From a virus: DNA of 44,344 nt. This document shows positions 2,070 to 44,036 of this stretch, piece after piece. The notes below the pieces were generated by a model. The model was not told where the DNA came from and did no database searches. It saw nothing but the letters and a program-made list of their open reading frames with translations. The position numbers and the translations under genes were made by a program. The DNA lies in IMG/VR virus record IMGVR_UViG_3300023301_000023, positions 1 through 44,344 of that record; one strand, 5' to 3'. Position 1 is the first letter of the stretch, and every line of letters starts with the position of its first letter.

Positions 2070-2110
2070 TACAATATATAAATATCGTCGTTGTGCTGCG
2101 GTTGTTTCGG
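2070..2110 (-). promoter_or_regulatory. ECF-like phage promoter A
   Basis: Read on the minus strand: CCGAAACA (2110-2103), 15 bases, then CGATATTTATATATTGTA (2087-2070). It matches nine other sites in the window and lies 41 bp before the gene starting at 2029. It immediately follows the terminator of the methyltransferase gene. Recognition by the phage sigma factor at 11,305-11,970 is inferred. Confidence 0.7.
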
Positions 2111-2875: not shown

Positions 2876-2916
2876 TACAATGAATAAATGTCGGGGGATT
2901 TCCTCTGTTGTTTCGG
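2876..2916 (-). promoter_or_regulatory. ECF-like phage promoter B
   Basis: Minus strand: CCGAAACA (2916-2909), 15 bases, CGACATTTATTCATTGTA (2893-2876). It lies 42 bp before the methyltransferase start. The last 18 bases are identical to those of promoter E, though the spacers differ. Confidence 0.7.
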
Positions 2917-2971: not shown

Positions 2972-5152
2972 TTATCTTATTGGACAAACGCCACTCGCGC
3001 AATCCGTACTTCCTATAAGTTCCGCGTCCTTAATATCGACGTTTCCCTGTGCAATATCTTGCGGTTTTCCCATAATGAACTTCGAAAGTTCCGTATATTC
3101 TAACTCTGATATTGGTTCGTTTGGTGCCTGTTGGTATCCGTGTCCGCTATATGGTAGCATTGACGTGGACTTGATAGAACCCTTATACTCTCTAAGCAAT
3201 GGGGCGATTTTGTGTTTCTCGTCTGCGTTAAATGTTATCGTACAACTAACTGAATTATCTGCCCAATATGTCTGAATGAACGATTGTGTCGCGATTTGTT
3301 CCTCAATGGATACGTCACACGCTGCCTTGAAGTTAGGCTTGTCCACGTTAGGCGCCTTTGTGTAGAAGTCCACGACAACTGTATTCGCTGAATATACGTC
3401 CGGTTCAATATTGTAATTTCCTTTTCTTAGAACCGCAACAAGTGGGTCGTTCGCTTGGAATCTGATTCTTTTTATCTGCCAATCTGCGTAATTCCAATGG
3501 ATACCCGCACTTACACCCGGTAAGAGGGCCACGGTTCCGCTTGGTTTAACTGTTGTTTTCTTCTTGGATAGTTTGCACCCATATTCGTTGGAAACCTCTA
3601 CGTCGGCTTCTGCTACTAATTGATACCATGCGTTAAATGCTGCTGCTATTTCCATGTTATATATTGGTTTATTGTTTGAATCCCAACCCTTTACAATAGG
3701 GGCGTCGAATGTAGTAAGAACCCAATCTTGTATACCGGATATTGATACCCCGATTCTGCGATTCTTTTCAATAACATTCCTTGTAACTTCCCAATCATAA
3801 TTTGAAAAAGTAACTCTTTTAGTGTAACGAACCGCAAGCCTAAGAATCTTATTCATGCTGCCGCCAAGTGCCACTATTTTAGAAGGGAATATTTCAATTA
3901 GATTGCAGTTTTCGCCATTCTCAAGGGTAACTTCGCCACATGGATTCCAACCTTCAACGTCAACGTCCGCTTCCGGATTGAATCCGTCGATTATTCTTCC
4001 GAAGTATCTCGCAAGATATAGATTACCGATTCCCGGTTCCCCATTTTTAGATACCGCTTCGGCAATAGGGTCGTAGTCGTCAAAGTGTTGGTCTATCAAT
4101 ACTGTGTTATTTGAAGCCCATCTATGCGACATTAGTTTGTCAAGGTCTTGTTTCATTAGGCGGAAGTCTGTATCGTCTGCGTCACCTAATGATATTTCCG
4201 CGCTACGTCTTACGTTTCCGGCGATTACTGTTTTACCTATATAATTCATTAAGTCCGTAACATCAACCGAAGTCAATTGTTCGCCCTGTCTTTCATTAAT
4301 GAGATTGTTCGCATATATAAGAAGTTCAACCAATGCTTTCGCGCCGCTTGCGATTCCTCCGAATCCTTTTATTCGTTCGCCCTCGGGCCTTATGTCTGAT
4401 ACGTCAATAGTAATGTTTGTCGTGTCAACCGCGTTAAAATGTGCGTCGATAACTAGTGCCATTGATTCGACCCAACCCTCTCGACTATCGGGGATAACGA
4501 ATACTAGGTCGCCTTCTTTGGCTTCCGTACCGCTAAGTTTATCCGCGAATTTATTATAATCGGCGTTTGATTCCTTACATATAATTGATAGGTTGACTCC
4601 AAGACCAACTTCCGGGATTCTATTAATGTGTTCCCTCGCAACGCTGAACCCAACGCCGCCGCCTTTCATGCTTTGGTCGAATAGGAATGAAAAAGCCATT
4701 GATACAAGTTCGTCGTTTCCCTCTGAATAGAATGGTATAATTCCACTTTTGCCGTACTTCTGCGGGTATGTAGATATAAACCAACAATTATTAAGTGCGT
4801 CACCATGCTTTGCTGCGAAGTCTGTTCCACTAATCCAAAGACCTCGGCCGGGTGGTAGTGCTTGCAGCGAATAAAATACCTCGAATAATTCTTGGGCTTC
4901 TTTCGTCAATTCTGCGACCAATTTTACACTTTTCTTTGATACGCATTTTACTTTTTTAAGTCTAGGGTCAATATTGATATTACCCTCGACAACTCTTTTT
5001 ATTGTTTCGTGAAACTCTTCATTTCTTCCCGCGTACTCTATCCACCTTGCGTATGTTCTCTTATATGTTACCCAACCAAGAACACCCCACGCCGGTGCAA
5101 CCTTTGTCGCCGCTGCTATAAATTCGTCACTTAATTTAATTTTGTATTTCAT
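2972..5152 (-). CDS. nrdJ: Class II (adenosylcobalamin-dependent) ribonucleoside-triphosphate reductase
   Basis: A 726-aa monomeric B12-dependent reductase that makes deoxynucleotides for phage DNA synthesis. The layout matches the Lactobacillus leichmannii enzyme closely. A thiyl-type cysteine sits in NNCWF (Cys123). NPCGE carries Cys405 and Glu407, with the partner Cys416 exactly 11 residues on. The C-terminal tail CASGVCPIR has the shuttle cysteines Cys718/Cys723. The frame stays open upstream to 5248, but I place the start at the ATG at 5152. It has a textbook AGGAGG site 6 nt away, and promoter I lies inside the longer version. No NrdI/NrdH partner or iron-radical subunit is nearby, as expected for class II. 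It is a single-gene unit with its own promoter and terminator. Confidence 0.95.
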   Translation of the reverse strand: MKYKIKLSDEFIAAATKVAPAWGVLGWVTYKRTYARWIEYAGRNEEFHETIKRVVEGNINIDPRLKKVKCVSKKSVKLVAELTKEAQELFEVFYSLQALPPGRGLWISGTDFAAKHGDALNNCWFISTYPQKYGKSGIIPFYSEGNDELVSMAFSFLFDQSMKGGGVGFSVAREHINRIPEVGLGVNLSIICKESNADYNKFADKLSGTEAKEGDLVFVIPDSREGWVESMALVIDAHFNAVDTTNITIDVSDIRPEGERIKGFGGIASGAKALVELLIYANNLINERQGEQLTSVDVTDLMNYIGKTVIAGNVRRSAEISLGDADDTDFRLMKQDLDKLMSHRWASNNTVLIDQHFDDYDPIAEAVSKNGEPGIGNLYLARYFGRIIDGFNPEADVDVEGWNPCGEVTLENGENCNLIEIFPSKIVALGGSMNKILRLAVRYTKRVTFSNYDWEVTRNVIEKNRRIGVSISGIQDWVLTTFDAPIVKGWDSNNKPIYNMEIAAAFNAWYQLVAEADVEVSNEYGCKLSKKKTTVKPSGTVALLPGVSAGIHWNYADWQIKRIRFQANDPLVAVLRKGNYNIEPDVYSANTVVVDFYTKAPNVDKPNFKAACDVSIEEQIATQSFIQTYWADNSVSCTITFNADEKHKIAPLLREYKGSIKSTSMLPYSGHGYQQAPNEPISELEYTELSKFIMGKPQDIAQGNVDIKDAELIGSTDCASGVCPIR

Positions 5153-5189: not shown

Positions 5190-5227
5190 CCCTGTATAAT
5201 GTCGCTGCCGTTTGACGATTGTTGTGG
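5190..5227 (-). promoter_or_regulatory. ECF-like phage promoter I (before RNR)
   Basis: Minus strand: CCACAACA (5227-5220), 15 bases, CGACATTATACAG (from 5204). One base of the -35 element differs from consensus. It lies 38 bp before the start at 5152 and behind the lysin terminator. Confidence 0.6.
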
Positions 5228-7656: not shown

Positions 7657-9921
7657 TTATTTCTTATCTCTGCTGAACCATTCTTTTTTATTCAATTCGT
7701 TTTCGCCCCATCGGTAAGTGAACATTGCGTCGACCTTAACCGGTATGTCTAAGGTGCAAGCGCCTGTCATTGCTTCCTCTAAGAAGTCCACTTCCTCAAC
7801 GGTGATATTTTCATCGACGTATAACAACGCTTCATCGTGTACGGTCGCCAACATCGCGTATCCCAACGTTGTGGCTGCTGCGTCTAATCTAATAAGTGCT
7901 AACTTCATAACGTCGGCGGCTGACCCTTGAATGATTGCATTAACCGCCATTCGTCGAACTCTCTCGACCTTTCCTTTGACGTCTTGAAACGCCCTTTTGA
8001 GTTTGTACGGTAGTTCCTTTTTGAACGCCCATATATTCGACGGTAGCTTTTCAACTCCTAGTCGTTCGCATATCTCCTTCGCAAGTTTGTCGTACTGAAT
8101 AGCCTGTTGACCGTGTCCCGGGAATCTGCGTTTCCTTCCGTACATTGTAGTGACAAACTCGTCGCGCTTGACTTGTTCCCATACCGATTTAATCCATAAC
8201 CCTACTTGTGGGTAGCTGATATAAAAATCCTCGATGAACTGTTCGGCTTCCTCGACGCTGATTCTTAATTGTTTTGCCAACGTCCTCATGGTAGTTCCGT
8301 ACATTACCGCTAATAGTCCGACCTTCATCATCTTTCTTAATTTGGTACCGTCGCCACATTCTTCAATCGGCTTTTTAAATACCTTTGCCGCAAGTGTGGC
8401 GTATAAATCTATTCCCTTGTTGTACGGTTCTCTGAAATGTTCATCGCCGGATATATGCGCCAATACGCGGGGTTCAATCTGTGAATAATCCGCCCCGAAT
8501 ATTATTTGTCCGGGTGGTGCGATGAATAACCGCCTTGCTAGTGTGGGAATGTTTTGTAAGTTCGGATTGTTTGACGCGAACCTTCCGGTTACTGTGCCGT
8601 TTTGTTTGAATCCTCCGTGAAGTCTGCCGTCCTCTTTTATGTTGTTGGGTAGTTTGTCCACGTATGTTCCAACCAACTTCGTCAATTCTCGGTATCTTAG
8701 CAACGTTTTAATCCCATCATGTTCGACTTCATCGTTTAACCTTTTCAATGTGTCGGCGTCGGTGCTTTGCTTTTTGCTAATGTCCGGAAGCTGCCAATCC
8801 TCATAGAATATTTTCTTTAGCTGCGTCGGACTATTAAAATTAATATCTTTCGGGAAATAGTTCCACAACTCGGCTTCGGCTTCTGCAAGTTCCGCTTTCA
8901 ATATGTCGCCATATTCCTTCGCGAATTTCGTGTCCACAATGAATCCGGTTTGTTCCATGTTGATACATACCTCGACAAGCGGGTTCTCTACGGTTTTATA
9001 TAATGTGTGTACCTCTTTCAACTTGTCTTTGCTTAAGTGGGATAGCTGCCATTGGTAGAATCTCCACGTCAAGTCGGTGTCCTTCGCTGCATACGCAAGG
9101 GCTATGTCTAACGGTATGGTATTAAATTTACAATTCTTCCCGAATAACTCGGCGAACGTGTCGGACGGTTCCTTCAAGAACTTAGTCGCAAGGTCTTTCA
9201 ATCTATACGAAAGTAAGTCCTCGGATAATAACCACATAATAATCATTGCGTCGGCTGCTAATCCATTTAGTCGTACACCCTCGTTAATCAATACATGGGT
9301 GTCGAACTTGGCGTTAAATAGAACCTTACCTATTGCCGGATTCTCGAAACATGGTCGTAATTTATTCATAACCACATCGTTCGGAATCTGCTTTCCCTCG
9401 TCGTGTCTTGTTGGTATGTAATAATGTAGGTCTGCAACCGGTAGGGTAACGGATAACCCGACAAGGTGGTCTATTCCGAATAGGTCAAGCCCTGTGGTTT
9501 CTGTGTCTACCGATATAATTGGTTCTTTTTCCATAAGTTCGACCATAGTGTCAAGCGCTGCTTCGTCTTGAATCAATGTATAATTTTTCGGTGTATTTGC
9601 AACCATATCAATTAATGTTTGTTCTCTTCTTTCGATGGAAAAACGCTTCCACATTCTAAGGGCTTCGGTCTTTGAGAACTTGGCTTGTGGTAGTGTGTCG
9701 CCGCTGCGCCATGATTCTCTGACGTCCCGAATTTTTACCATATCGGGGTTACTATTCTTCATTAATAGAACCCGTTCCCAATCCGCTTCGGTTACGTTTA
9801 AGGACGTTTCTTTTATTTCCTTGGCCTGTTTTGCCCTCGTGGTTTTTTTCTCTGCTGCTGCTGCGGGTGCTTCCCCTAAATTAATCTTTAAATTTTCGAT
9901 TGATGTTTGAACTTTACTCAT
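7657..9921 (-). CDS. polA: Family A DNA polymerase with 3'-5' exonuclease
   Basis: A 754-aa replicative polymerase. Proofreading acids are Asp139/Glu141 (VDTETTG), Asp207 (NAKFDTH) and Tyr277-x3-Asp281. Polymerase motifs are TGRFASNNPNLQNIP, motif A GADYSQIEPRVLAH (Asp478), motif B KMMKVGLLAVMYG (about 530-541) and motif C HDE (695-697). The first 110 residues are Lys/Ala/Thr-rich and not part of the classical 5' nuclease, which is absent. Between RKRRFPG (about 600) and AVNAIIQGSAAD (about 660) there are some 40 more residues than in host Pol I. ATG with TAGGAGG site. Promoter J lies just upstream, so it can be transcribed with the nuclease, RuvC and lysin genes. Confidence 0.96.
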   Translation of the reverse strand: MSKVQTSIENLKINLGEAPAAAAEKKTTRAKQAKEIKETSLNVTEADWERVLLMKNSNPDMVKIRDVRESWRSGDTLPQAKFSKTEALRMWKRFSIERREQTLIDMVANTPKNYTLIQDEAALDTMVELMEKEPIISVDTETTGLDLFGIDHLVGLSVTLPVADLHYYIPTRHDEGKQIPNDVVMNKLRPCFENPAIGKVLFNAKFDTHVLINEGVRLNGLAADAMIIMWLLSEDLLSYRLKDLATKFLKEPSDTFAELFGKNCKFNTIPLDIALAYAAKDTDLTWRFYQWQLSHLSKDKLKEVHTLYKTVENPLVEVCINMEQTGFIVDTKFAKEYGDILKAELAEAEAELWNYFPKDINFNSPTQLKKIFYEDWQLPDISKKQSTDADTLKRLNDEVEHDGIKTLLRYRELTKLVGTYVDKLPNNIKEDGRLHGGFKQNGTVTGRFASNNPNLQNIPTLARRLFIAPPGQIIFGADYSQIEPRVLAHISGDEHFREPYNKGIDLYATLAAKVFKKPIEECGDGTKLRKMMKVGLLAVMYGTTMRTLAKQLRISVEEAEQFIEDFYISYPQVGLWIKSVWEQVKRDEFVTTMYGRKRRFPGHGQQAIQYDKLAKEICERLGVEKLPSNIWAFKKELPYKLKRAFQDVKGKVERVRRMAVNAIIQGSAADVMKLALIRLDAAATTLGYAMLATVHDEALLYVDENITVEEVDFLEEAMTGACTLDIPVKVDAMFTYRWGENELNKKEWFSRDKK

Positions 9922-9943: not shown

Positions 9944-9984
9944 TTATACTAGTTAATGTCGCAAAAAAAGACGGGTTGTTTCGC
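9944..9984 (-). promoter_or_regulatory. ECF-like phage promoter J (before DNA polymerase)
   Basis: Minus strand: GCGAAACA (9984-9977), 15 bases, CGACATTAACTAGTATAA (from 9961). Its -35 element lies in the loop of the upstream terminator, and the T-run of that terminator is the promoter spacer. Confidence 0.65.
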
Positions 9985-9989
9985 CCGTC
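9963..9989 (-). terminator. Terminator overlapping promoter J
   Basis: Minus-strand stem GACGGG / CCCGTC with an 8-nt loop, then seven T. It ends transcription of the membrane-protein gene whose stop is at 9997. A strong candidate. Confidence 0.8.
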
Positions 9990-11304: not shown

Positions 11305-11970
11305 TTAAAATATGTTTGCTACGTTTGTCTTTTGTTGAATAAACACCTTGAACGCGGCCCTTGCACGGAATACAACCGAACGAACCTTCCCATTGTATAC
11401 TGCTTCACCTAATACCTCGGCGATGTCGTCGTTTCCGGCGCCTGTGCTTAATGCTTTAATAACTAGGTAGAATCTTTCGTTGTACTCTTTGAACTCTTCT
11501 ATTATGGAAACTACACCGTCCAACGAATCCTTGCGGCAATGCTTATCCTCCGGGCTTTCGTCTGCGAACTTGGCAAGTATTATATCGCCTAATGTGTCGC
11601 CCTCTTCGTTAATAGTTTCATTGAGATAAACGCTTTGGCCCTTTTCATATGTAGGCTTTTTCTCCTTAATTGTTCGGTAGCTTCTCCAAACGTCGGCTTC
11701 TCTCATACTCATGTAGGTTCTTAACCTCTGCATAAAATGGCTTGAACCATCGTACTCTTTAGCTGATTGCCATATCGAAAAGTTATACGCACTCTCAAAG
11801 TCTTCTTTCGGAATAAATACGTTGTGTGATTCGGCGTTCTGTGAAGCCCTTATCGACTTTGCTACTACGAATCCTCTTAGTTCTTCGAATAAATCCACGA
11901 TTGATTGTGCATCGCCTTTTGCATAGTTTATTGCTAATTTGTCAAGAACCTCATTATTATTTTTAAACAT
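11305..11970 (-). CDS. Phage RNA polymerase sigma factor (ECF-like)
   Basis: A 221-aa sigma-70 family protein that appears to hold only regions 2 and 4. Region 2 is at about 55-108: an acidic FIPKEDFESAYNFSIWQSAKEYD segment (as in EDLxQe-W--i-kfd) followed by FMQRLRTYMSMREADVWRSYR. A roughly 50-residue acidic linker follows. Region 4, a helix-turn-helix, is at about 163-212 (YLVIKALSTGAGNDDIAEVL ... KVRSVVFRARAAF). Two-domain proteins of this size are typical of group IV/ECF sigma factors. It should redirect host RNA polymerase to phage promoters. Its own gene is preceded by promoter C, suggesting positive autoregulation, and by a sigma-A-like promoter farther up. The family call is firm; the ECF label and target motif are inference. 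Confidence 0.8.
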   Translation of the reverse strand: MFKNNNEVLDKLAINYAKGDAQSIVDLFEELRGFVVAKSIRASQNAESHNVFIPKEDFESAYNFSIWQSAKEYDGSSHFMQRLRTYMSMREADVWRSYRTIKEKKPTYEKGQSVYLNETINEEGDTLGDIILAKFADESPEDKHCRKDSLDGVVSIIEEFKEYNERFYLVIKALSTGAGNDDIAEVLGEAVYNGKVRSVVFRARAAFKVFIQQKTNVANIF

Positions 11971-12010
11971 TTAAAATTCCACCTTCGCATATTATTTAAG
12001 AAGTTTCCCT

Positions 12011-12051
12011 CATACTAAATAAATATCGAAAGGTTTTCGGTGTTGTTGCGG
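12011..12051 (-). promoter_or_regulatory. ECF-like phage promoter C (before sigma factor)
   Basis: Minus strand: CCGCAACA (12051-12044), 15 bases, CGATATTTATTTAGTATG (12028-12011). The sigma gene starts 41 bp on. A GTCGTATAA motif abuts the -35 element at 12051-12059. Confidence 0.7.
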
Positions 12052-12181
12052 TCGTATAAATATTTATATTAATTGAATACATAATATTTACACATAATTT
12101 TATATAATCATAATTTCGGTCACAACCCTACTTATTACCCCATATCTACTCGTCGTATAAACGTCCCTTGCAATAAGTATA

Positions 12182-12210
12182 ATTATATACGTCGTCGTAT
12201 AATAAGTAAA
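12182..12210 (-). promoter_or_regulatory. Candidate sigma-A promoter upstream of sigma factor
   Basis: Minus strand TTTACT (12210-12205), 17 bases, TATAAT (12187-12182). A GTCGTATAA motif (12194-12202) lies in the spacer, as an operator would. It would allow host polymerase to start sigma-factor expression. Confidence 0.45.
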
Positions 12211-12260
12211 AAGGCGTGAGGTTGGATTGATGGTCGTATAATACTAATGATATGCATATC

Positions 12261-12332
12261 CTTTAATATCCTCGTTTGTTCTTTAATATCCTCGTTTGTT
12301 CTTTAATATCCTCGTTTGTTCTTTAATATCCT
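12261..12332. repeat. 20-bp tandem repeat (3.6 copies)
   Basis: CTTTAATATCCTCGTTTGTT occurs perfectly at 12261-12280, 12281-12300 and 12301-12320, then its first 12 bases again at 12321-12332. It is iteron-like and has no coding potential. Confidence 0.95.
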
Positions 12333-12425: not shown

Positions 12426-12992
12426 CTAATTCCAATCACCATAGACCGGTGTATTAGTTGAATTTAAGTCAATTTCTGTGTCGATAAACATTTCGGAAGC
12501 GTGTACGTAGCTGCCGTCGCCCGGTAATGAATAGCCATAACCGAACATATATTCCGGGTGAGTGTACCCACTCGTTGTGGCATAGTCGGAGAAGAATAAA
12601 GAACCGGCGGGTATTGTCCTCATAAAGTCACCGGAAGTAAAGTATACATTGACGTCTGCGTCGATGTGAAACTCAAGACCATTACCATCGGGGGAATATG
12701 CTAAACCTGTTCTTATGCCGAAACTCAATTGGCCCCACGGTATAAAGAACAAATCATAGTTAGACTGCGGGTACCCTGTGGAAAGTTCTGTTGGTTTCGG
12801 ATTCCCTAGTTCAAAAGTTCCCCATGATGTTCTGAACCTTATAATGTCTTCCCCGTTTGCCGCCACGTCCCTATCTGATTTGTTTATGGTTGTGAATCTT
12901 TCCTTTGGGTAGATGTGTCCTATAATCGACGTGTCGTACATACTTTGTACCTCTACAACTTCGCCTGTGTAATTAATTGATAAAAAACCCAT
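12426..12992 (-). CDS. Orphan protein with SH3-like N terminus
   Basis: A 188-aa protein of unknown function. Residues 5-60 look like a bacterial SH3-type beta barrel (TGEVVEVQSMYDTSIIGHIY then FRTSWGTFELG). The rest is beta-rich and aromatic (YDLFFIPWGQLSFGI, GYGYSLPGDGSYVHASEMF). No signal peptide or transmembrane helix is seen. It is a single-gene unit with promoter D in front and a terminator behind, so it is probably made when the phage sigma factor is active. It may bind cell-wall material, but lacks any catalytic motif I can name. ATG with ACGGAGG. Confidence 0.6.
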   Translation of the reverse strand: MGFLSINYTGEVVEVQSMYDTSIIGHIYPKERFTTINKSDRDVAANGEDIIRFRTSWGTFELGNPKPTELSTGYPQSNYDLFFIPWGQLSFGIRTGLAYSPDGNGLEFHIDADVNVYFTSGDFMRTIPAGSLFFSDYATTSGYTHPEYMFGYGYSLPGDGSYVHASEMFIDTEIDLNSTNTPVYGDWN

Positions 12993-13082: not shown

Positions 13083-13123
13083 TACAATAAATAAATATCG
13101 TCGCGTTTCTCGTTGTGTTGCGG
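13083..13123 (-). promoter_or_regulatory. ECF-like phage promoter D
   Basis: Minus strand: CCGCAACA (13123-13116), 15 bases, CGATATTTATTTATTGTA (13100-13083). It starts 5 bases after the T-run of the preceding terminator. The leader before the ATG at 12992 is about 90 bp, longer than usual here. Confidence 0.72.
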
Positions 13124-13171: not shown

Positions 13172-13972
13172 TTATAAGTCGGAATCTTTAAGCATTTTGT
13201 ATATTGTATTAATTCCCTTATGTGTGATTCTTGTTTGTGGTACGGAATACCTATCCCCGAAGCGTTCCACTACTACCAACAACCCCTCTGTCACATACTT
13301 GGTATATGGCTTCCATTGTTGATTCTTACCTTCTAATTTATAAATGAATTTCTTATTTAAAAAAGCGGTGAATTTCCCAAGGGGTACGCCTAACTGTTTT
13401 GCCGCGTCGCTGATAAGTGTCGTTCCCTCGTTCTCAATATATGTGTCGTGTGCCGCAACCTTTGGCGCTGCGATTGCAATTTGTTCTTCCTTTGCTGCGA
13501 TTTCGATTTTAGAATCTTTCATGTTTTGGAAGTATGCAAGTCCTCGTTCGTCCTCTGACATTGACAAGTATTGTTCCAACTTTCCGACCGGCTTTAATTG
13601 TTGGGCTTCGTCCATATCAACTAAAAAGTTTTTATACCTCATTGCCTTCTCGCTATGACATTCAAGTGCTAATCTTTTGCTTAACCAAGTTGACATATAA
13701 ATTGAATTTCTATCGTTCGTGTTTTCTATTTCATCAAGAACGTAGGCTATATCTGAGGTGTGTACTTTGTCCACACCTGTGGACACCCTTATTAAGTTTA
13801 GCTTTTGGGTTATTCCTCTATCTGTCCATCTTATTTTTGTGTATCCATTTTGTATCCTTGTTAATCCGCAGCATTTCGCGGTATGTACTAAATTGATTAA
13901 TGTTTTTCCCTCTGTTGTTTTAACTGATATGTCTTGTCCCTCGAATGTTTCTGTTTTAATATTATTCATCAT
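13172..13972 (-). CDS. Phage antirepressor-like protein with KilAC (ANT) domain
   Basis: A 266-aa two-domain regulator. The N-terminal half (GKTLINLVHTAKCCGL ... MSTWLSKRLALECHSEKAMRYKNFLVDMDE) has the look of Rha/BRO/KilA-N-type phage regulatory domains. The C-terminal 110 residues (NEGTTLISDAAKQLGVPLGK ... ITHKGINTIYKML) match the KilAC antirepressor DNA-binding domain with its winged-helix pattern and final HKG-helix. Proteins of this type often counter a lysogeny repressor. It is a single-gene unit between promoter E and a terminator. Two adjacent ATGs follow AAGGTGG, and either can be the start. The exact N-terminal family is uncertain. Confidence 0.75.
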   Translation of the reverse strand: MMNNIKTETFEGQDISVKTTEGKTLINLVHTAKCCGLTRIQNGYTKIRWTDRGITQKLNLIRVSTGVDKVHTSDIAYVLDEIENTNDRNSIYMSTWLSKRLALECHSEKAMRYKNFLVDMDEAQQLKPVGKLEQYLSMSEDERGLAYFQNMKDSKIEIAAKEEQIAIAAPKVAAHDTYIENEGTTLISDAAKQLGVPLGKFTAFLNKKFIYKLEGKNQQWKPYTKYVTEGLLVVVERFGDRYSVPQTRITHKGINTIYKMLKDSDL

Positions 13973-14010: not shown

Positions 14011-14051
14011 TACAATGAATAAATGTCGCGGTGACTATTGTCGTGTTGCGG
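14011..14051 (-). promoter_or_regulatory. ECF-like phage promoter E
   Basis: Minus strand: CCGCAACA (14051-14044), 15 bases, CGACATTTATTCATTGTA (14028-14011). It lies directly after the primase terminator and 39 bp before the gene at 13972. Confidence 0.72.
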
Positions 14052-17119: not shown

Positions 17120-17983
17120 CTATTTCCTTTTAAAACTCTTAAACTGTGCTTCGTCCTCTGCAATCTCTCTTTGTAGCTGCGCTTCCTCGTCCTCTGTGCG
17201 TACTGTTGCGCCGCCTGTTTTCTTGTGGTCGAATACTGAATCAACCCCGCCGGCTGCGTCTTCTCGTTCTTCCTCTGCCTTTGCTGCTGCCTGTGCCTTT
17301 GCGATTCTTTCGTCCTCGTCCTTGGTGTCGGTGCTTTCTGCATTTGCTATATCAATACATTTAGGAAATACCCACGTCACAAAGTTCCACAATGTAGGGG
17401 CTTCGAATCCGGGCTTCTTAAAAATCTCGTCGTACCTCATAACTAATATATCAATGGCACTAAATACAAGGTCTTTATCTGCATAAACTGAAACAACCTT
17501 TTGAGTTATTAACTTTGTAAACTGCGCCCAAGCCGCTTTCGGCATTGGATATTCATACGAATACTTCTCAAAATATAACCTTCTGAATCGTGATATTACG
17601 TCCCCGGCTTTGTACCCCAGTGCCTTCGCTTCCCTCTCCTGTGCTTCTGCCGTTACTGCTTCCGCTATATTGTCAACGGTTGGGTATACTGTGTAATGGC
17701 TATAGTAAAACGCATTTGCTTGCGATTTCTTTTTCGATACTAGTAAGATTGAGTCGCCCGAAGGTGTTCTGTAGGTTAACAATTTATCAATATATTTCTT
17801 AACGCTACGTTCTCCGACCCCCGCCGTGTCTGCAAGTGTTGCTTGTGTAGGATAACAACAACCCTTACTGTCGACATATGTTCCCAATACCATAAATACT
17901 TTGAAACTGTTACCGTCTAAATTAGTCAACATTCCTTCGCCTATTAACTCCGTCGTAGTCTGTAAAAATAAATCAAGATTCAT
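17120..17983 (-). CDS. Replication initiator / DnaD-type protein with HTH
   Basis: A 287-aa protein. Residues 10-100 are a winged-helix DNA-binding domain of the HTH_36 kind (FKVFMVLGTYVDSKGCCYPTQATLA... VKKYIDKLL). The middle (YLEKYS..MPKAAWAQFTKLI) is helical and the tail is an Ala/Glu-rich, probably disordered segment. Such genes directly before a helicase loader are usually phage replication initiators. A longer version starting at 18001 exists, but the GGAGG site lies between that ATG and the one at 17983, so I use 17983. Promoter F is 158 bp upstream. The origin it binds may lie inside this gene or at 12,261-12,332. Confidence 0.8.
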   Translation of the reverse strand: MNLDLFLQTTTELIGEGMLTNLDGNSFKVFMVLGTYVDSKGCCYPTQATLADTAGVGERSVKKYIDKLLTYRTPSGDSILLVSKKKSQANAFYYSHYTVYPTVDNIAEAVTAEAQEREAKALGYKAGDVISRFRRLYFEKYSYEYPMPKAAWAQFTKLITQKVVSVYADKDLVFSAIDILVMRYDEIFKKPGFEAPTLWNFVTWVFPKCIDIANAESTDTKDEDERIAKAQAAAKAEEEREDAAGGVDSVFDHKKTGGATVRTEDEEAQLQREIAEDEAQFKSFKRK

Positions 17984-18140
17984 AATAGTTAATACCTCCA
18001 TCGTTTTAATATCGCTTGTGGCATATAGACCGACCGCAACTTATGTCACTACTCTTTAAGTTCTTTAATAATAAATAAGGTTAGATATATAAAGACAAGA
18101 CTTTGTAGGCAACCTCTGCGTACTATCTAAATGCAATATG

Positions 18141-18181
18141 CGTATGATATATAATGTCGTCGCATATTATTATTGTTTCGG
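18141..18181 (-). promoter_or_regulatory. ECF-like phage promoter F (replication operon)
   Basis: Minus strand: CCGAAACA (18181-18174), 14 bases, CGACATTATATATCATACG (from 18159). It is the only site with a spacer of 14 rather than 15. It lies just behind the holin terminator and in front of initiator-loader-helicase-primase. Confidence 0.6.
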
Positions 18182-41136: not shown

Positions 41137-41331
41137 CTAGTTGAACCTAAAATGTTCCCTATCCTCGATATAGTCGTTCAAGTCGACAACCTCTTCTTCC
41201 TTGTCCTCAAGGTCTGATTCTAAGTCGTAGATTTTGTAGTCCTTTTCGTCGATGGCTTCTTCTAACTCATTAACTAACTCGGATAAGTATTTGATTTCCT
41301 GTCTAAGTTTCTTACGGTTTTTAATTCTCAA
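41137..41331 (-). CDS. Small coiled-coil protein
   Basis: A 64-aa protein, nearly all one heptad-pattern helix (KYLSELVNELEEAIDEKDYK, DLEDKEEEVVDLNDYIEDRE) after a basic start (RIKNRKKLR). The start codon is TTG at 41331 with AAGGGGG. It is the first gene behind promoter G and is probably co-transcribed with the next two. Function unknown; a small DNA- or protein-binding modulator is possible. Confidence 0.6.
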   Translation of the reverse strand: MRIKNRKKLRQEIKYLSELVNELEEAIDEKDYKIYDLESDLEDKEEEVVDLNDYIEDREHFRFN

Positions 41332-41353: not shown

Positions 41354-41394
41354 TATACTATATAAATATCGGGGCTTAAGGCTTATTGTTGCGG
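41354..41394 (-). promoter_or_regulatory. ECF-like phage promoter G
   Basis: Minus strand: CCGCAACA (41394-41387), 15 bases, CGATATTTATATAGTATA (41371-41354). It lies behind the integrase terminator and 23 bp before the gene at 41331. Confidence 0.7.
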
Positions 41395-41553: not shown

Positions 41554-42570
41554 TTATTTAAACTCTATGCCTTCAATAACCTTTGTAAGTTCTTCCTTAC
41601 TCGGTGTGGTGTAAATCCTCGTGGTGTTTATATTGCTATGGCCCGCAAGTTCTGCGACTAACTGAATCTTTCCGGTGGCGTCTGCTATCTGTTTACAATA
41701 AGTATGTCGTAATGTGTGTGGTGAGAACTCAACCCCGGACAACTTCGAAAGGTTTTGGGTTAGGTGCTGAACCCCTCTTTCACTAAACTTCATATTAGTA
41801 GTGTTGTTCCGTTCGGCCACGAATACATAAGAATCTTTAGGTAGGTGCAATTCTTCATCGACGGCCCCGCCGAAACTTAATGAACCTCTAACGGCCGCCA
41901 TCGTTCCCTCGGTGATTGGGACTTGTCTAAACTTCCCACCCTTACCGTCACGAACTGTAAGAACGCCGGTTGTGAAGTCGATGTCGCCTACTCTAAGGTC
42001 GGTCAATTCTTTTACACGTAAACCACAATTTACAAGAACCAATATAATGGCGCGGTTCCTTGCGATTCTATCCGGAGTGATTCGGTATAGTTGGGGGATT
42101 GATTCGATTATTTTGTCTACCTCTTCGCGCTTCAACCATTTAACTGCGCCTTGATTACCCCCTTGCACTTTTTTCATTGTTATATTATTGCCGTATTTAG
42201 TAGTGATATACTTATCCTCATATAGAAACTCGAAGAATTTACGTATTGATATGATACGTCGGTTTGTTGTGGTGGGTGCATACTTCGGTGACTTCTTAAT
42301 ACTCGTCGCGAACTGAACGAATGATTGTCCGGCGGATTCTAATATCGTGCTATCTTTTAAGATAAGGTCTTTCTTTTTATCTAGCCAAGCGACGAACCCA
42401 CGTAAGTCTGCAATATAGTTTTTTATAGTTATTTCGCTTTTACCTTCTTCAATTAAAGCTGCTTCGAATAGTTTCATTGCTTCCGGTAGTGTGGTCTTTT
42501 TTATGTTGGGCTTGCGTGTCCTTTTCTTGGGGAACGGTGTATATTCTGTGTTATCCGTTTGCTTTTTCAT
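41554..42570 (-). CDS. int: Tyrosine recombinase / phage integrase
   Basis: A 338-aa XerC/D-type recombinase. The N-terminal SAM-like core-binding domain is at about 28-130 (MKLFEAALIEEGKSEITIKN...RIISIRKFFEFLY). The catalytic domain has Arg in NCGLRVKELTDL, Lys in GKGGKFRQVP, His285-x-x-Arg288 (HTLRH), His311 (GHSN) and Tyr320 (RIYTT) as nucleophile, so all active-site residues are present. There is no N-terminal arm-binding domain as in lambda Int. ATG with GAAGGGA. It has its own sigma-A-type promoter and a terminator, so it is regulated separately from the rest. Confidence 0.95.
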   Translation of the reverse strand: MKKQTDNTEYTPFPKKRTRKPNIKKTTLPEAMKLFEAALIEEGKSEITIKNYIADLRGFVAWLDKKKDLILKDSTILESAGQSFVQFATSIKKSPKYAPTTTNRRIISIRKFFEFLYEDKYITTKYGNNITMKKVQGGNQGAVKWLKREEVDKIIESIPQLYRITPDRIARNRAIILVLVNCGLRVKELTDLRVGDIDFTTGVLTVRDGKGGKFRQVPITEGTMAAVRGSLSFGGAVDEELHLPKDSYVFVAERNNTTNMKFSERGVQHLTQNLSKLSGVEFSPHTLRHTYCKQIADATGKIQLVAELAGHSNINTTRIYTTPSKEELTKVIEGIEFK

Positions 42571-42645
42571 AATGAATACTTCCCTTCAAACTGTATTATA
42601 CTACTATTAGGTGTCGTGTCGCAATCGCCTTGTCGTATAATAACA

Positions 42646-43775: not shown

Positions 43776-44036
43776 CTAATTATTCTCTTTCCAATCCCAT
43801 GATTCACAATTCGTATTATTCATTATGTAGTCGAACACCGGCGCCTTCTTAACCTTCATAACATTGACCGCGTATCCGTTTCCCCTTAAATCTCTAATAG
43901 CGTCCTTTTTAGTTCTTTGGTATATCTCAACGATTATCTTTTTGTTGTCGTTAAACTTATCTGTTACGATTGCCTTGTATGCTATGTGTTTTAGTTCGAT
44001 TCTCATTTCTTCAATTTCTGTTAATTGTGTATTCAT
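43776..44036 (-). CDS. Hypothetical small protein
   Basis: An 86-aa Lys-rich protein (EEMRIELKHIAYKAIVTDKF, IVEIYQRTKKDAIRDLRGN) ending in an Asn/Trp-rich tail. It is of unknown family. ATG with AAAGGCGG. It is the rightmost complete gene; both a sigma-A-like promoter (44170-44197) and a weak ECF-like site (44066-44106) precede it. A dyad repeat follows its stop. Confidence 0.65.
   Translation of the reverse strand: MNTQLTEIEEMRIELKHIAYKAIVTDKFNDNKKIIVEIYQRTKKDAIRDLRGNGYAVNVMKVKKAPVFDYIMNNTNCESWDWKENN

Follow-up and report, generated by a model that had tools for sequence, protein, structure and literature searches.

Sigma factors encoded by phages are known from several systems. Gp47 of Salmonella phage 7-11 (SaPh711_gp47), whose nearest homologues include a sigma24, directs the host core polymerase in vitro to the promoter GTAAtg-(16)-aCTA, and both this protein and the sigma factor of phiEco32 drive late genes (PMC8948821). 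The promoters of phiEco32 gp36 consist of a single element (PMC8948821, PMC4331800). A phage ECF-like sigma factor with a bipartite promoter is thus already known from 7-11. In SPO1, gp28 and gp34 are sigma factors controlling middle and late genes (PMC9429907).

Here we analyzed a 44,344-nucleotide stretch of viral DNA, referred to as the window. It resembles 7-11 and phiEco32 in that the sigma factor is phage-encoded and that sigma factor and promoter differ between related phages, and it shares with 7-11 a bipartite promoter. Those two are enterobacterial phages and were compared by literature description only. Whereas 7-11 gp47 serves late genes, the sites in the window precede replication, nucleotide and regulatory genes of an integrase-bearing phage, with one site on the sigma gene. 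The SPO1 proteins, likewise sigma factors with which a Bacillota phage controls its genes, are set apart by their described middle and late targets. The bacterial ECF sigma factors sigE and SigW have in common with the window protein the two-domain layout, the region-2 fold, the AAC...CG spacing and the VRSxxFRAR helix. In contrast to these, the window sigma is phage-borne and its promoters have a long conserved stretch downstream of the -10 box. The closest named family is BacL2 of the enterococcal bacteriocin-41 plasmid locus, where two-box sites like the phage promoters occur. BacL2 differs in sitting on a bacteriocin locus and is 18% identical to the window protein in our family alignment. 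The literature covered here contained nothing on the regulation of BacL2.

Nine two-box sites in the window

A pattern scan of the 44,344-base record for CCGMAACA-N15-CGAY resulted in six exact matches, all on the minus strand and none on the plus strand, starting (first -35 base) at 2110, 2916, 12051, 13123, 14051 and 41394. A reversed control pattern did not occur in the whole record. Allowing at most two mismatches to CCGMAACA-N15-CGAYATT gave nine matches, compared to 0.44 expected in shuffles (maximum 2), and added 5227 before the ribonucleotide reductase (RNR) gene and 9984 before the DNA polymerase gene. The site at 18181, before the replication initiator, was gained by a two-block matrix that allowed spacings of 14-16 and scored every site with itself left out. 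The nine sites took leave-one-out ranks between 1 and 10 among 88,688 positions, and ten positions scored 17 or more, versus a mean of 0.16 in second-order random sequence. The sole interloper among these ranks was 16496, a high-scoring match without CG inside the helicase-loader gene, which may be a chance match or an internal promoter.

The minus strand bears most of the window genes as well as all nine sites. Eight sites read AAC-N16-CGAY and one AAC-N15-CGAY, that is, an AAC-containing -35 and a CG-containing -10 about 16 bases apart, as in ECF-type promoters. The conserved stretch of the best sites, CGAYATTTATWNATTGTA, is longer than stated before. The original prediction had listed ten sites with a 15-base spacer in nine of them. 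Nine proved real and eight of these keep N15, with N14 at 18181; the "weak" site before the gene at 44036 was rejected, as its best matrix score (6.4) is at background level. Comparison of the spacers confirmed different bases, which shows that the sites did not arise by recent copying or duplication. It was also correct that none precedes a structural gene, as judged by the first downstream gene at all nine sites. Searching the sequence collection for the exact window motif found only L140, another contig of the same phage, which is not independent support since its annotated genes are 100% identical to those of the window.

Table 1. Positions of the sites and the sigma gene in the window, and two-box motifs of related genomes.
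Feature	Genome	Position	Strand	Remark
Promoter	window	2084..2110	-	before 88-aa gene 1763-2029, then 152-aa gene and DNA ligase
Promoter	window	2890..2916	-	before DNA methyltransferase 2154-2834
Promoter CCACAACA-N15-CGAC	window	5201..5227	-	before ribonucleotide reductase 2972-5152
Promoter	window	9958..9984	-	before DNA polymerase I 7657-9921
ECF-like, BacL2-related sigma factor, 221 aa	window	11305..11970	-	profiles, AlphaFold/Foldseek
Promoter CCGCAACA-N15-CGAT	window	12025..12051	-	before the sigma gene itself
Four copies of [CG]GTCGTATAA	window	12050..12243	+	upstream of sigma gene
Candidate host sigma-A promoter TTTACT-N17-TATAAT	window	12182..12210	-	scan count not above chance
Promoter	window	13097..13123	-	before 188-aa unknown gene 12426-12992
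Promoter	window	14025..14051	-	before antirepressor-like gene 13172-13972
Promoter (N14)	window	18156..18181	-	before replication initiator 17120-18001
Promoter	window	41368..41394	-	before 64-aa gene 41137-41331
Motif TGTCACA..CGCAACAC	G001			
Motif TGTAACAA..TTTACTAAATACTTGA	G003			
Motif TGTGACA..CGTATT	G005			eight sites in own genome
Motif TGTCACAAA..ATACATTA	G006			
Motif TCACAAATG..CGGTTATTAAGTAGTG	G007			
Motif GTCACA..CCGGTAGA	G011			
Motif TGTCTG..TGTGTAGGAATTAGA	G012			

The genes for a DnaC-like loader, a DnaB-like helicase and a primase lie downstream of the replication initiator. The virion cluster (18246-40666, holin to terminase) has no sigma-type site at its head. Nevertheless, a general middle/late sigma factor that also drives the virion genes would be conceivable, since on that strand no strong site lies upstream of the cluster other than the promoter at 41394, about 700 bp before the terminase gene, and late genes are the targets in 7-11 and phiEco32 (PMC8948821). 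However, a terminator-like hairpin (40741-40722) separates this promoter from terminase, and in the relatives the annotated targets are mostly replication or nucleotide genes, one relative having a holin homologue among them. We therefore regard such a wider role as unlikely.

Terminator-like hairpins are also present directly before several promoters (18237-18210, 14084-14063, 13157-13134 and 41542-41507), and terminator counts in those promoter regions are only modestly above shuffles. At 9958-9989 on the minus strand an intrinsic-terminator-like hairpin encloses the promoter -35; its T-run falls within the spacer and is followed directly by the -10. This compact terminator-promoter layout was seen, as a raw count, at 7 of 94 sites (9984 in the window, one each in G010, L017 and L013, and three in G005).

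Upstream of the sigma gene, the sigma-A-type sequence (Table 1) is a possible entry promoter, and one [CG]GTCGTATAA copy overlaps it. Exact copies of the 11-mer GTCGTATAATA lie at 12194, 12233 and 42632 (42632-42642, plus strand), the last of these upstream of integrase. Both types of repeats are possible repressor operators. A direct repeat of CTTTAATATCCTCGTTTGTT with a 20-base period, likewise upstream of the sigma gene, occupies 12261-12332. The integrase gene at 41554-42570 suggests that the phage is temperate.

Related genomes carry their own motifs

As relatives we used 12 virus records fetched by a related DNA polymerase. An iterated profile search resulted in 13 family proteins from the window and 11 of the 12 records; the twelfth, the fragment G008, contains only the end of a homologue at its edge. 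The contig recorded as both L007 and G010 shows synteny with the window, with 53% identity for the polymerase, 55% for RNR, 52% for the helicase and 32% for sigma. It has no set of window-type sites, and TGTCACA-N16-CCACA is found before its replication initiator, sigma, ssb, polymerase and RNR genes. De novo dyad counts revealed a differing two-box motif in most of the other records (Table 1), some with 3-5 sites only, and the dyad search found no motif in G009. Cross-scanning the motifs gave a near-diagonal pattern, with the exception of L011, which matched the G001 motif, and a few single stray matches; the zero for G005 in its own genome is an artefact of a pattern with gap 14 instead of the true 15. 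In G007, G011, G012 and G003 conservation extends over a block of 15-19 bases that includes the -10 and reaches into the presumed start region, and thus exceeds the usual length of an ECF -10.

The sigma gene is preceded by a site in the window, G001, G002, G003, G005, G006, G010, G011 and G012; no site was seen before it in G004, G007 and G009. Target types shared among the relatives are sigma itself, DNA polymerase, replication initiator, ssb, RNR and dNMP kinase, as well as dUTPase, thymidylate synthase and thymidine kinase. Other annotated targets are endonucleases and, in G011, the holin homologue. A host ECF sigma factor of the SigW type could also be imagined to read a real promoter class, leaving the protein at 11305 with some other function, and the window motif does resemble host ECF promoters (AAC-N16-CG). 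But the motifs of the relatives are quite different, each tracking the phage's own sigma, and the motif sits on the sigma gene itself in most genomes, which makes reading by a host factor highly improbable.

The original prediction had called such a regulon unusual and suggested searching relatives with the window motif. Most of them have genome-specific dyads, and the regulon is not a one-off, as a lineage of phages and prophages with known hosts in Bacilli has it. Bacterial contigs with the sigma family come from Sporosarcina, Sporolactobacillus, Marinococcus and Terribacillus. Judged by the BacL2 model the family is rare, with matches in 3 out of 399 genomes belonging to one class. G006 encodes a second, more canonical sigma factor (L111:5675-6298, minus strand) beside the BacL2-like one. 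Among named phages, tblastn gave no match to the window protein or to three of its relatives. The sigma factors annotated in Bacillus phages 268TH002 and KLEB27-1 and in Listeria phage P70 were unconvincing as members of the family (E 0.005-0.05 for 268TH002 gp52), and a search of these three genomes did not reveal a matching dyad.

The 221-aa protein and its recognition helix

Region 2 spans approximately residues 5-102 and region 4 residues 147-220, with the recognition helix NGKVRSVVFRARAAF. Pfam and PHROG scans with the single window protein gave no match. The NCBIfam BacL2 model NF041508 matched it with an E-value of 2.6e-24 and 86 bits. As the curated cut-off is 200 bits, which the proteins of G010 and G001 pass with 216 and 200 bits, the window protein is related to the BacL2 family without being a member. 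Having regions 2 and 4 only, its 221 aa fall within the approximately 160-230 aa of group IV sigma factors. The window protein alone stayed below the cut-off of the general NCBIfam sigma70-ECF model (E 0.026), and it is as a family that the profile, built from 11 members and leaving out the two most canonical-looking sigma members, matched sigma-H (3mzy, 1.6e-7) and a WhiG-type sigma (6pfv, 5e-5) in the PDB, both across the two regions. Judged by profile, the protein is a distant BacL2 relative and a member of the sigma-70 family. No anti-sigma gene was identified, short of a systematic search; such a partner is not present in every ECF group.

The AlphaFold model (pLDDT 82, pTM 0.47) shows two helical domains and a low-confidence linker. 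Its PDB matches in Foldseek are overwhelmingly sigma factors; the uncertain arrangement of the domains keeps the full-length E-values modest (7e-3). Taken by itself, region 2 could be superposed both on SigC (2o7g; rmsd 2.2, TMt 0.80) and on sigE in complex with its -10 DNA (4lup; rmsd 3.3, TMt 0.73). Among viral models, an RpoE-like sigma of a phage and further phage sigmas come closest. That the protein is instead a helix-turn-helix activator or repressor binding the two boxes as an operator would fit the weak single-protein family matches but is very improbable, given a region-2 fold that matches sigma -10-binding domains, profile matches to sigma-H and WhiG over both regions, and boxes that are spaced like -35 and -10 and lie upstream of genes, solely on the coding strand.

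In structures of sigma-4 with DNA, sigE R176 and SigW R175 contact G-35, sigE R171 and SigW K170 contact G'-31, and sigE S172 and SigW T171 contact the -34 purine (PMC6713349). In our family alignment, the position equivalent to R176 is R in 19 of 19 members and G-35 is present in 19 of 19 motifs, where G-35 was favoured by the TGTNACA-type patterns used to find sites in several of the genomes whose motifs rest on few sites (G004, L013, L133-L138 and BacL2). The R171-equivalent position is R in all 17 members with C-31 (Fisher p 0.006, treating related sequences as independent and with the -35 register set by hand). The exceptions, Q in G012 and A in L017, belong to the two motifs with G or T at -31. 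L011, L013 and L017 were checked after this rule was seen, and all fit. The window helix VRSVVFRAR and that of sigE, which we take to be VRSRIFRAR, consistent with the published contacts at all numbered positions, have R171, S172, F175, R176 and R178 in common. The window -35, CCG(A/C)AACA, resembles the sigE GGAAC.

A proposed autoregulated regulon and its meaning

Taken together, we propose, with a probability of about 0.9, that an autoregulated ECF-like phage sigma factor drives a replication, nucleotide and regulator regulon via the nine promoters. An ECF-like sigma with matching promoters was the core of the original prediction, and it is upheld by the sigma fold, the ECF spacing AAC-N16-CG, the sigE-like helix and the co-variation of sigma and promoter across relatives. 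The nine-copy promoter is very probably read by the phage's own sigma factor. The two-domain protein would join the host core RNA polymerase and direct it to the nine promoters, each with CCG(A/C)AACA as its -35 and, at ECF spacing, a -10 that begins with CGAY. The promoter on its own gene would provide positive feedback, and the other sites would turn on genes for replication, nucleotide metabolism, a methyltransferase and an antirepressor, as well as small genes of unknown function. Virion genes would not be directly switched on. The first sigma expression would come from a host sigma-A promoter, which a repressor might control in this integrase-bearing phage. We infer binding, transcription, this early host-polymerase step and the timing.

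On the E. faecalis plasmid L129, which carries bacteriocin 41, TGTCACA-type dyads are located on the plus strand at 1877, before an amidohydrolase gene, and at 3872, before bacL2; from its position and annotation, the adjoining amidohydrolase gene is presumably bacL1. It seems likely that a lineage of phages and prophages with known hosts in Bacilli carries one BacL2-related sigma family, whose -35 and -10 preferences diverged together with the promoters into about a dozen matched, largely non-cross-matching pairs, and that BacL2 is a member now on a plasmid. As far as the published work compared here shows, the family, the replication-centred autoregulated regulon of a phage with an integrase, the diverged pairs and the BacL2 link are new. 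For BacL2 of enterococci, a mechanism as a sigma factor is suggested. Homologous sigma factors with promoters readable in each genome make specificity and its evolution testable residue against base. They are also candidate orthogonal sigma/promoter pairs for Gram-positive bacteria, and they offer a readable transcription map for many unannotated phages.
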